Part shown: one piece after another, positions 31,301 to 47,305 of the stretch
How positions within the stretch are numbered: position 1 is the first letter of the stretch
Layout of the letters: every line of letters starts with the position of its first letter
Virus record (IMG/VR): IMGVR_UViG_3300032087_005336
Span: 1 to 53,315 of that record
Source: a virus
Reading direction: 5' to 3' (one strand)
DNA length: 53,315 nt
The notes under the pieces: model-generated
The model's input: only the letters and a program-made list of their open reading frames with translations
What the model was told of the DNA's origin: nothing
Databases searched by the model: none
Translations under genes and position numbers: made by a program

Positions 31301-34300
31301 TGGAAGTTTAATAAGACCAAAACCAGAAGAAACAAAATCAACCTCATTTATTGGACCAGAAGCAGTAGTTGAAATTGCAGAATATGATAGAGAGTCAATT
31401 TCCTTTACATAAGATGAAGAATCTGGTTTTTGGTTTAGTTTATATCTAAAAGTTTTATCAGTAACAGTATTAATTACATAATCACCATTTATAGGACTTT
31501 CTACTATAGAAATAGAATTTTCATAATCAGAATCAAGAAGTAGCTGAGTAAATGTAAATGGAGTTACATTATCTTTAATAGGATCTAATTTGTAGTATAG
31601 TTTAGATGGGAAGTTATCATCACAAACTAATTTTACATTTGCATCAACATCAATACCAATCCTGCCAGACTTTCTTACACTCAATGCATTTGATAGTTTT
31701 GAAGAAATAAACTCATGCCTTAAATTCTCATCATAGAAGAATTTGAGGGTAAATGCTGGATATCTAATATTACTTCTTACATAAGAAAGACTAGGATCCG
31801 ATAAATCAAATTTTAAAGTTTTATTTTTTTCTAAAGTCAACGGGGGATTTACTACAATCAGACGACCAAATGATTGGGTGGATATATTTTTTGTAGTTTC
31901 ACCATCAATAGACAATTTGATCTCATTCTGAGAATGTACAAGAACATAATACACACCATTATTAACCAAACCACCTGGAGCAGAGTCTGATTCTAGAATA
32001 ACTTTTTGCCCTGTCCTTAAACCATGATTATTAATAGTGATGATATTAGTCTGAGTATCTACATCAGAAGAAATAAATGCAAACAGTCCCGTACCAAACT
32101 TTTTATTTTGCTGATTATACGCAATTTTAATAGTTTTTTCGGCACTTGATTTACACTCAAAAGTTATTAGATCATTTGCACTCAAGTTATGATCTGTAGT
32201 TGTTTCTACAGTTGCCTCATAAGTTGATACAATTAATTTTGTAAGATTGTCATAATCAGTTTTAAAACTGTGATTATCACCTACACCAAAACTAGTAAAT
32301 GTTAAGAGTTCAGTTTCACTACCAATTCCAACAATTCCAGTAGATCCGAATCCAACGGGTCTACTGGAAATACCAATTAGACCATTTTGAAATGGAACTG
32401 CATAATATGGTTTATTTTTAACAAGATTAAAGTCATCACCAAAAGACTCTACTCTAATAGGATTGCTATCGTAATCATAGTAAATTACGTCATTAATTTC
32501 TAAGGTATTTCCTGCAAGATATATTCTATTTCCCGCAATGAATCTCTGAGTAGAACCTGCCCCAGGATTAGATACACTAATTGTAGTTCCAATTCCAACA
32601 CCAACAGATTGTTGTGGATTAAAGTAGAATTGAGAATTAAACTTACCAATTTTTGTATTCTGGAAATCATTATTTTGAATAATAAATTTCCTTGGAAGTT
32701 CATCTAACTTGGTTCCTGCCGAATAACTTGTCCCAATAGTTCCATTAATTTCTCTTTGAACTCTAAGTCTTGAATTAAAAGAATCTATATTGAGGATCTT
32801 TATTTCTTCATAGAAATTACCACGTTTAATTTTAAATACATCATTTGAAAGGATTGGAATTTCATTTTTGCTAGATTTTAATCCATAAATTCCAAAATAG
32901 GTAACAATTCCAGTTTGAGATGGTTGTCCAATGTCACCACTTAAAACAAGTTGCTTTTGACGGACTTCTAAATTCACATCATAAGTAGTATTCTCTTCAG
33001 TATTAAGAATATTTGCTAATCCAGATGACAGATTGTGCTGTGATGTGTAAATACCAAGAGCTTGTCCAAAGGAAGTATTAATTACTTCTACATCATAAAT
33101 GCTAGAAGATGCGATAGAAACAGAAGAAACTTCAGTTCCACCAATACTAACAACTTTTGCTAGTGGTCTTCTATTTGCTAATGTTGGATCATACTCAAAA
33201 GTAATCTTATCACCAACTTTAAAATCTCTACCACCTTCAAAAATATTAATATCAGTAACAGTACCAGAACTTACTTTTTTGATTTTAGAAATAAAATCTG
33301 TGTTATCTGATGGGTTAAATAAGTATTCATATTTTCCATATGGAGATGAAATATTATATGGTTGAATATTTCTAAGTAGATCATAATTTTTATAATCTTC
33401 TTTAATATCCCCATAGATAAAATCAGACTGTGTTACAGTAGAATCATAGTTAAAATCAATTACTTTGGATTTAAAGGTATTTCCAATAAAATATGGGAAT
33501 GCTGGTAATTTATAGTTTTTAAATCCAGCATCATTAGTTCCTAAGGTTGAAAAATATGCATATATTCCTTTTGGATATTCTGGTGTTACGCAAAATCTTC
33601 CATTATGAATATCCAAATCTCCTGTTGCAAGCCATTCGTAGTCATTTACAAAAAACCCTAAGGGGAAATCTGTTATTGATGGTCTGTTTGCAGTATTTCT
33701 CTTAGAATAACCACTTACCATTCTCTTGATTCCACCCGTTCCATCTGGATTTGCGTATCCAAATGGTCCATAAATTGGATTACCATCATATGCCCATCCT
33801 ATAATTGGAGAGTGGTAATCCGAATCAGTTTCTCTGCCCAAATTATCTAGAATTAAATCTGAACTAAAAATAGTTCTTCCATCAACTACTTTTTTGTTAT
33901 ATAAAGAACTTCTTAATTTTCTTGGAACGTAGCAATGACCATATTGCAAAATTCCATACTCTTCAGCATCGTCAAGAGTCGTTGTAGAATCTTGATAGAT
34001 GAAACCATCATCATCATAAATTTGATTTGAATTTAGATTTCTTTCAACTTCATTGATATTCCATTTTGTTATTTTGCCTTGGAACTTCGCACCAGATCCA
34101 GCAGATACAATTTCTATCTCTGTAGAATCATTATAATTATATCCACCATTCTTTACTATAACATCAGATAAAACACCGTTTGATATGACTGGAATTAATT
34201 CTGCACCATATCCATTTCCATCGGTATAAATTTCAATACTTGGATTTGATGAATAATTCTGACCAACATTTTGAATAATTACTTCTTCTATAACTCCATT

Positions 34301-44551: not shown

Positions 44552-44719
44552 TCACCAGAGTGAATCATACTTTGTGGAGAGATCTTCAATGTAAGTTTCA
44601 CACTTCTCATCCCCTTGCAGTTCAAATAACTTTTCCCAGTCAATCTGGTGGGGATTAAAGTCATCCATTGCTTCAATCTCAAGAGTGATGCGATACTTGG
44701 ACTTCTGTGCGTAAGGCAT
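44552..44719 (-). CDS. Small acidic protein, 55 residues
   Basis: It reads MPYAQKSKYRITLEIEAMDD ... HQIDWEKLFELQGDEKCETYIEDLSTKYDSLW. The ordered mix of strand (YRITLEIEA) and helix and the strong sigma70-like promoter 30 bases upstream support a real gene. The ribosome site is weak (AGAAGA). Unknown function; possibly an early host-takeover protein, by position only. Confidence 0.75.
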   Translation of the reverse strand: MPYAQKSKYRITLEIEAMDDFNPHQIDWEKLFELQGDEKCETYIEDLSTKYDSLW

Positions 44720-44748
44720 TGTTCTTCTGGTGATTTGACTGCTCAGTT

Positions 44749-44777
44749 ATCATAAACCATTCTGAGTTGATTGTCAA
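44749..44777 (-). promoter_or_regulatory. Sigma70-like early promoter of the 55-residue gene
   Basis: On the minus strand TTGACA (44772-44777), exactly 17 bases, TATGAT (44749-44754). The -35 box continues as TTGACAATCAAC, as at 43159-43187. Confidence 0.82.
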
Positions 44778-44832
44778 GAATACCACGAAGTGTTGCGATA
44801 TTCTTATGTATAAAATTTAGAATGATTTTGGA

Positions 44833-44840
44833 TATTTATG
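44833..44840 (-). promoter_or_regulatory. Possible late promoter (CATAAATA)
   Basis: Exact NATAAATA match on the minus strand, but 113 bases from the nearest downstream ATG (44719). It could give late expression of the same unit, or be a chance match in AT-rich DNA. Confidence 0.35.
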
Positions 44841-44871
44841 TCAGGGTTCTGAGATTTTTCTGATCTGGGTG

Positions 44872-44900
44872 TTGACTTTTTTGCGATCTGTCGGTATAAT
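44872..44900 (+). promoter_or_regulatory. Rightward sigma70-like promoter, opposite to all genes
   Basis: On the plus strand TTGACT (44872-44877), exactly 17 bases, TATAAT (44895-44900). No plus-strand gene follows. The transcript would start near 44907 and cross the gene-free region, then run antisense to the small genes beyond 45075 unless it ends before them. Confidence 0.72.
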
Positions 44901-44906
44901 GCACGC

Positions 44907-45026
44907 CAAGATCACAATAAGTAGAAGGATTTAGAAGACATTTAAAGAAGCATAAAATCACTGCAAAGATACTCTCAAGACCCTGCACAGTTACTGTCAA
45001 GAGTATTCCACAGGTTTTTCCACAAC
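44907..45026 (+). ncRNA. Candidate non-coding or origin-associated transcript
   Basis: The proposed RNA starts at the rightward promoter. Near its end ATACTCT and AGAGTAT can pair across about 25 bases, and GGTTTTTCC follows. The 3' end is a guess; the U-run is short and interrupted. The evidence is only a strong promoter with no gene behind it. Confidence 0.35.
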
Positions 45027-45074
45027 TTGTTAGAAAACACTCATATACGTTTTTAAATACATTTTTAATTGATT

Positions 45075-45239
45075 TTAACCCAATAATGGTACAATTTCAA
45101 CGTTTTTACACCCTAATTCTTTGACATGACGTTCCCAAAGCATAGCATCACGAACATCAAAGAATACTGCTTCTTGCTTACTCCAATACCCTGATTTGTT
45201 CTTGGGTTGTTGATACACTACACTGAACTTGTTGATCAT
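45075..45239 (-). CDS. Small protein overlapping the membrane protein gene, 54 residues
   Basis: It reads MINKFSVVYQQPKNKSGYWS and continues KQEAVFFDVRDAMLWERHVKELGCKNVEIVPLLG, a compact alpha/beta pattern typical of a real folded protein. It starts 62 bases inside the preceding gene in another frame. The alternation FFDVRDAMLWERHVKELGCKNVEIVPL fits a beta-alpha-beta unit. Unknown function. Last gene of a long operon running into the gene-free region. Confidence 0.78.
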   Translation of the reverse strand: MINKFSVVYQQPKNKSGYWSKQEAVFFDVRDAMLWERHVKELGCKNVEIVPLLG

Positions 45240-45408
45240 AGTTGACATCATTCCAATGACGAATTGCGTTTGCTACGATAGCAATGTTGGTAATAAGATA
45301 AGAGAGAAAGATTAACGAACGAATGATTGCAATCTTATCTGATTCTTTATCATCTGGTGTTGCTTTCTCTCCTAATGCTTTACACCATAATCTCCACACC
45401 TTTTTCAT
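45178..45408 (-). CDS. Small membrane protein, 76 residues
   Basis: It starts MKKVWRLWCKALGEKATPDD, a short amphipathic start, then has one clear transmembrane segment at about residues 29-50 (RSLIFLSYLITNIAIVANAI) and a short polar tail. I recall this type from other T4-like cyanophages, with no known role. The ATG begins right after the oxygenase stop. The 3' 62 bases also encode the start of the next protein. Confidence 0.78.
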   Translation of the reverse strand: MKKVWRLWCKALGEKATPDDKESDKIAIIRSLIFLSYLITNIAIVANAIRHWNDVNYDQQVQCSVSTTQEQIRVLE

Positions 45409-45933
45409 TTACGCATACACTATATTCAGAACTAATCTTAAATCTTCATCAGTACAATTTGTCCCTGTATGTTCATACGTATTAGGAAAGAATAATGCTC
45501 GATTTGCTTTACTTTTAAATTTACGAATCATTCCATTTTCATCTTTGATCTGTGTGTAACCATTGTTAGTGTTAATCATTAAAATACAGATCTTTAATGG
45601 AGCAGGGAATGATTGACCAGGAATTGAATCATCATCTGTTACATCAATATGATAAGGTTTCAAATACAACTTTTCTCCTTTGGGTGTTGCATTGACCTTA
45701 ATACGATAGATGCAATAGAGATCATTGATTTCATTGACGATGTTTAACATATCATCGGCAAAGTCTCCTTCTGGTTTATTCTCATCATAGAAACAATGAA
45801 CGAATTGTGGATAACCATCTCCATCATATACCGAACCATTGTTGTAATGCCATGGCACTTCATATGGTACGATTTCCGAAAGTTCAGAGAACACTTCTTC
45901 TGGGAGAAAGTTATCAACAACTTGAATGTTCAT
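45409..45933 (-). CDS. 2OG-Fe(II) oxygenase family protein
   Basis: A 174-residue protein of the prolyl-4-hydroxylase-like type common in cyanophages. It begins MNIQVVDNFLPEEVFSELSE, the usual N-terminal strand and helix. The iron ligands are H95-x-D97 (LKPYHIDVTDD) and H155 (NTYEHTGTNC), and R166 (DLRLVLNIVY) is the expected 2-oxoglutarate contact. The full double-stranded beta-helix core is therefore present. The substrate (protein side chain, nucleic acid base or small molecule) cannot be read from the sequence. Its start overlaps the upstream stop by ATGA. Confidence 0.88.
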   Translation of the reverse strand: MNIQVVDNFLPEEVFSELSEIVPYEVPWHYNNGSVYDGDGYPQFVHCFYDENKPEGDFADDMLNIVNEINDLYCIYRIKVNATPKGEKLYLKPYHIDVTDDDSIPGQSFPAPLKICILMINTNNGYTQIKDENGMIRKFKSKANRALFFPNTYEHTGTNCTDEDLRLVLNIVYA

Positions 45934-47113: not shown

Positions 47114-47305
47114 TCAGATGTGAGTTTGACTTTTGTGAATGAAACGGTCGAACTTTTCAAGACGATAACCCTCTTTGATTGCTTGATTGATTATATTGGA
47201 ATAAGAATGTGATGTCAATGGGATATACCGATGAACGAGGTAATCCTCACAATCCTCTGATAATGCTTCCAGTTGTTCATGCGTGAGATGGTCGAAGTTC
47301 ATCAT
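47114..47305 (-). CDS. Small protein, 63 residues
   Basis: MMNFDHLTHEQLEALSEDCE continues DYLVHRYIPLTSHSYSNIINQAIKEGYRLEKFDRF. Two ATGs lie in tandem and either may be used. Helical, soluble, no known family. An extended -10 promoter lies just upstream, and a perfect sigma70-like promoter is embedded in its coding sequence. Confidence 0.7.
   Translation of the reverse strand: MMNFDHLTHEQLEALSEDCEDYLVHRYIPLTSHSYSNIINQAIKEGYRLEKFDRFIHKSQTHI
47190..47218 (-). promoter_or_regulatory. Sigma70-like promoter inside a coding sequence
   Basis: On the minus strand TTGACA (47213-47218), exactly 17 bases, TATAAT (47190-47195): a full consensus match. It would start transcription of the genes from 47097 downwards. 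Confidence 0.7.

Follow-up and report, generated by a model that had tools for sequence, protein, structure and literature searches.

Background

Two origins of bacteriophage T4, oriF and oriG, are stretches of about 100 bp in which a promoter is followed by an AT-rich unwinding element, and the R-loop formed by the transcript primes replication (PMC3016281). In cyanobacteria, TTTTCCACA is a species-specific, experimentally supported DnaA box, and domain IV of DnaA binds paired boxes (PMC4674748). As of a 2010 review, an origin had been predicted for the T4-like cyanophage Syn9 and was not known for other such phages (PMC2984593); according to the account given there, the prediction is of a single theta origin (Weigele et al. 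2007), and the same source cites an antisense RNA, CfrI, made by phage S-PM2. Our search of a literature collection for DnaA boxes in cyanophages found no paper.

No origin has yet been established for these phages, which abound in the ocean. The element described below, present also in the model phages S-PM2, Syn9 and Syn1, is an exact, cross-genus candidate of about 200 bp, and T4-like viruses of marine cyanobacteria probably begin to copy their DNA there.

A gene-free gap with a conserved promoter

The window, i.e. the whole stretch of 53,315 bases analysed here, is a viral record to which, within the phage collection, Synechococcus phage S-SCSM1 (Kyanoviridae) is most closely related; the record comes from a T4-like cyanophage of this family. 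The initial annotation described a rightward promoter, TTGACT-17-TATAAT, in a segment in which all genes face left. Both points are borne out: every long gene of the window lies on the minus strand, and the promoter sequence is exact at 44872-44900, inside a gap (Table 1) whose homolog in S-SCSM1 measures 354 bp, is 90% identical, and is the biggest gap within an 8.7-kb stretch of that phage. The plus strand of the gap contains no ORF longer than 35 aa and no conserved ORF. No terminator-like site was found on this strand between the promoter and 47.8 kb, and a tRNA search of the window returned none. The 2OG-Fe(II) oxygenase gene adjoins the element in several relatives.

Table 1. Features of the element and its surroundings in the window
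Feature	Position	Strand	Basis and remarks
Leftward ORFs bounding the gap	44552-44719 (55 aa) and 45075-45251 (58 aa)	-	ORF list
Gene-free gap containing the entire element	44720-45074 (355 bp)		Lies between leftward ORFs; same gap in S-SCSM1
Promoter-like site TTGACA-17-TATGAT, directed left towards the 55-aa gene	44749-44777	-	Promoter scan; flanks the element, outside the origin claim
-35 hexamer TTGACT	44872-44877	+	Exact; TTGAC/TTGCC in relatives
-10 hexamer TATAAT	44895-44900	+	Exact; TANNNT in relatives, usually with TG one base upstream
Conserved block at predicted transcript start, GCACGCCAAGATCACAA	44901-44917	+	Kept across relatives; used as search bait
20-nt direct repeat, two copies, 22-nt spacing, 85% alike, just before the boxes	44961-45002	+	Repeat scan
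DnaA-box-like site 1, TATTCCACA, differing from TTTTCCACA by one mismatch	45004-45012	+	Motif from PMC4674748
Candidate DnaA box 2, TTTTCCACA, identical to the cyanobacterial box; spaced 12 bp from site 1	45016-45024	+	Motif match; enriched in relatives
TGTTAGAAAA, putative decayed third, inverted box position	45028-45037	-	Comparison with relatives
AT-rich tract, candidate unwinding element	45041-45075		Stability and repeat scan; core unique
Tandem 12-mers ATACGTTTTTAA and ATACATTTTTAA, within the AT-rich tract	45045-45056 and 45057-45068		Repeat scan
Homolog of S-SCSM1 2OG-Fe(II) oxygenase	45409-45933	-	ORF and homology

As to the further statement that the promoter is one of the best sigma-70 matches, it is second-best in the 37-53 kb part, the best being a 12/12 match at 47218 on the minus strand. 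The latter (TTGACA-17-TATAAT, 47190-47218) faces left into a small-gene cluster. On the plus strand of the window there are 6 matches of at least 11/12, compared to 1.9 (sd 1.4) in dinucleotide shuffles. Five of them belong to the structural-gene region (13-29 kb) and have spacers of 16 or 18 nt; the sole match with a 17-nt spacer and a location inside a gap is the one under study. Judging from sequence, this match on its own is not beyond chance, and it is conservation in relatives that makes it significant; the site presumably acts as a promoter.

We searched viral contigs with a block of 18 bases at the predicted start of the transcript, which includes the last T of the -10 hexamer and excludes the -35, the spacing, the TA of the -10, the boxes and the tract, and recovered 34 contigs. 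TTG[AC]C, a 17-nt spacer and TANNN[TC] are found in 25 of the 29 elements scanned; in elements fetched in this way, the hexamers and the extended TGaTA are conserved, the spacer drifts, and the next ~17 bases after the -10 are also kept. The S-SCSM1 promoter reads TTGACA-17-TAGACT. The neighbouring oxygenase protein, used as an IMG/VR query, gave 3 relatives only, environmental contigs that all keep TTGACA-17-TAGACT as well as the boxes. The combined promoter-plus-block pattern (at most one mismatch) occurs once each in S-SM2, S-BM3, S-PRM1, DSL-LC02 and S-SCSM1, every time at the element. In S-PRM1-like phages a rightward gene additionally lies ahead of the promoter; in S-PRM1 it begins ~180 bp downstream.

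A second group of phages (S-PM2, Syn1, S-RIM32, S-CAM1, Sf-CH11, S-RSM4, S-H9-1, and others) has TTGAC, a block like GCGTGCTAAGMCAACA, and a poor -10. Of 23 genomes, 14 show the pattern of this group, each at a single place; the reversed control has 0 matches. In S-PM2 the element lies at 19.2-19.35 kb of AJ630128. Promoter activity is doubtful in the second group, and the poor -10 in S-PM2, Syn1 and their kin counts against reading the element as an origin, as does the result that P-SSM2, P-SSM4, P-HM2 and T4 have no such element by the patterns used. A similar extended promoter with start-block-like sequence is seen at another genome place in S-B43 (54563-54602) and S-B05 (31769-31808).

DnaA boxes and the boxless subgroup

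The two boxes behind the promoter, overlooked by the initial annotation, are the only occurrences of TTCCACA on the plus strand of the window (45004-45024). The position of TGTTAGAAAA reads TGTGGAAAA in S-PM2, S-CAM3 and S-RIM32. Two or more boxes, near-matches included, are present in the gap of S-CAM1, S-PM2, Syn1, S-RIM44, S-RIM32, Sf-CH11, Sf-FR1, S-CAM3, S-H38, S-BM3, S-PRM1, DSL-LC02 and DSL-LC03, arranged as direct pairs or triples with a 12-bp period, as inverted copies, or as larger clusters; since several of these phages were found through their boxes, the counts are partly circular. Neither Syn9 nor S-SM2 was chosen for boxes: in the former, 2 of the 4 genomic TTTTCCACA, together with one near-match, lie next to the element in a span of 45 bp, and in the latter 2 of 3 lie at the element. 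Wherever tandem boxes were found, they occupy one place per genome (control, 0). Box positions and orientations shift between lineages in what looks like the manner of binding sites, and the 45-bp distance between the boxes of one environmental relative (L147) resembles binding-site turnover.

An unbiased test was made on the elements, 21 distinct ones, that the search with the transcript-start block had brought up. Box density behind the promoter is 20.8 times that in the rest of the same contigs, with p = 3e-16, a value that overstates independence because the elements are related. The first two box bases, which were not selected for, are TT in 13 of 16 cases inside the element versus 6 of 29 outside. 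The bare tandem-box pattern has at least 120 matches in viral contigs, and is not specific alone because these contigs are of many kinds. The DnaA proteins of the hosts WH7803 and RCC307 carry GGKDHTT, a motif of the DNA-binding domain; in neither host does the dnaN-side region contain a TTTTCCACA cluster, and this counts against the origin reading, in which use of the box by these hosts' DnaA is conjectural. The small number of boxes in the window, two with one of them imperfect, argues against the origin reading. The idea that the repeats form a hairpin instead of a protein site was rejected as a general explanation, as Syn1, Sf-CH11, Sf-FR1 and S-H38 have direct triples, not inverted pairs.

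The 606-bp gap of the freshwater phage DSL-LC03 (locus L139, 971-1577) holds 7 exact TTTTCCACA of the 10 in the genome, in two clusters, and appears to be the most oriC-like version among those seen. The record AJ630128 of S-PM2 has tRNA-Leu and tRNA-Asn annotated over the boxes (locus L005, 2434-2590). ARAGORN detects no tRNA anywhere in the S-PM2 locus, the S-PM2 record LN828717 has no tRNA there, and the two annotations are probably false. Outside cyanophages, unannotated stretches in Streptomyces phages Faust, Moab, Sham and Patelgo (~122-124 kb) match the tandem-box query and are possibly DnaA-box origins in unrelated phages.

In S-RSM4, S-H9-1, S-WAM2, S-B43, S-CAM4 and ACG-2014e the element has no boxes. 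The boxes are therefore dispensable, which counts against the origin reading. At the element, S-RSM4, S-H9-1 and S-WAM2 have an inverted repeat, TTGATTNTCAAT...TTATTGAGAA, that occurs nowhere else in the genome; DSL-LC03 combines this repeat, likewise at one place in the genome, with boxes. The repeat could be where another initiator or a regulator binds.

The AT-rich tract

The AT-rich tract that the initial annotation placed downstream of the promoter is real: its least stable 60-bp segment, starting at 45027, ranks among the lowest 1.6% of the window. The AT core occurs once in the window, and once per whole genome, at the element, in S-PM2, S-RSM4, DSL-LC02, DSL-LC03 and S-CAM3; in this form it is missing from 3 of the 8 genomes tested. 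A stricter form has exact matches solely at the element in S-SCSM1, S-CAM1, S-PM2, DSL-LC02 and S-BM3. The order of tract and boxes varies between lineages. In S-PM2, Syn1, S-CAM3 and S-H9-1, the 60-bp segment of lowest stability around the element lies ~150-250 bp upstream of TTGAC and not in the downstream tract, and in Syn1 and S-H9-1 it is at or almost at the whole-genome minimum; in this group the upstream stretch could be the real unwinding site.

A candidate replication origin and its alternatives

We consider it slightly better than an even bet that the gap, with its observed anatomy, conservation, single place per genome and box enrichment, is a replication origin of T4-like Synechococcus phages, primed by transcription in the manner of oriF and, in many lineages, recruiting host DnaA. 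Early in infection, unmodified host RNA polymerase would transcribe rightward from 44872-44900, and the transcript would pass the two boxes and then the tract of tandem 12-mers. The tract would be opened by box-bound host DnaA, by an R-loop of the new transcript, or by both, so that the transcript could prime rightward leading-strand synthesis within it; the phage gp41/gp61/gp59 machinery would load onto the displaced strand, and a switch to recombination-dependent replication would come later, as in T4. Cyanophages have the T4 replisome in common, and cyanomyoviruses are without motA/asi and are supposed to use unmodified host polymerase early (PMC2984593), which makes a host-type promoter a natural substitute. 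The proposal of the initial annotation that the site primes replication as T4 origins do fits the comparative evidence in its plan of promoter and unwinding tract, to which the boxes are an addition. GC and TA skew, calculated for 8 whole genomes, have scarcely any signal beyond shuffles, and GC skew is uninformative; neither has an extremum at the element, where the strand-skew switch of oriC-type origins is not seen, and this is a point against an origin.

A more specific version, which we hold tentatively and at rather less than even chances, is a hybrid origin, one per genome, at which a primer transcript from a host sigma-70 promoter would act together with boxes for host DnaA and with an unwinding tract; certain lineages would have exchanged the boxes, as the initiator site, for the unique inverted repeat and retained the promoter-like site and the AT tract. 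If so, a large phage family supposed to be independent of host initiators would use one, and a link to DnaA would tie phage replication to the host initiator, with a bearing on the dependence of infection on host growth and the light cycle.

The occurrence of promoter, start block and AT core in a subgroup devoid of boxes, some members of which have the inverted repeat instead, is also what one would expect if the origin were transcription-primed and oriF-like, and DnaA or another reader of TTTTCCACA only regulated or blocked the transcript. The strong enrichment of full 9-mer boxes, and their maintenance where present, speak against this arrangement, which we regard as unlikely, though the least so among the alternatives. 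Slightly less likely still is a gene for an early non-coding or antisense RNA acting on host or phage RNAs, with the boxes tying this RNA to DnaA. Conservation of the promoter and of the first ~17 transcribed bases would suit such a gene, as would the lack of a rightward gene in the lineage of the window and the precedent of CfrI in S-PM2, as far as the review (PMC2984593) reports it. On the other hand, the sequence from the start block to the AT tract is not alignable across relatives, the downstream genes vary in kind and strand, 25 aligned elements have no conserved RNA structure, and the fold energy of the window RNA is no better than that of shuffles (z = -0.40). Rfam gave sub-threshold matches only, and these elsewhere. 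The plain regulatory RNA suggested at first is accordingly disfavoured, its structure being neither conserved nor unusual and its sequence matching no Rfam family above threshold; the promoter may produce an unstructured antisense RNA.

That a rightward gene has its ordinary promoter here, or that the site is what remains of such a promoter, with the rest a coincidence, is improbable: the rightward gene of S-PRM1 and the expectation of about two chance matches of this quality per strand agree with it, but in S-SCSM1 and the environmental relatives the promoter is conserved with no rightward gene, together with boxes and AT core. Most improbable of all, in our estimate, is a titration decoy for host DnaA, next to an unrelated promoter, that would halt replication of the host. 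The boxes are clustered, and numerous in DSL-LC03, as a decoy would have them, yet there are usually only two or three per genome at the element, in fixed association with the promoter and the AT core.

Comparison with known systems

Like oriF and oriG, the element belongs to a T4-like phage with T4 replisome genes and has a predicted promoter (conserved TTGAC-17-TANNNT) that would direct RNA into an AT-rich candidate unwinding element within ~100-200 bp. It differs from them in that the promoter is of host sigma-70 type, in place of the MotA-dependent middle promoter of T4, in the presence of DnaA boxes or an inverted repeat, and in its one place per genome, compared to several origins in T4; an R-loop, established for T4, is here postulated. 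With a sigma-70 -35 and no motA, the element may work like oriF but is no member of the oriF/oriG class.

The cyanobacterial oriC (PMC4674748) likewise combines TTTTCCACA clusters with a neighbouring AT-rich tract that contains tandem 12-mers. Host-type clusters are found in the boxed types of the element only (one exact and one single-mismatch box in the window), and the adjacent tract is a candidate for unwinding. Unlike oriC, the element resides in a phage genome, has no dnaN or dnaA neighbour and usually 2-3 boxes, and a predicted strong promoter points through it.

Transcription against genes in a T4-like cyanophage, as predicted here, is also known from CfrI; this RNA is located at psbA, and the review's account of it (PMC2984593) describes neither boxes nor an AT core. 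The origin predicted for Syn9, in the form in which that review relates it, agrees with the element in being one per cyanomyovirus genome, and the Syn9 (NC_008296) copy of the element lies at about 52.55-52.70 kb.
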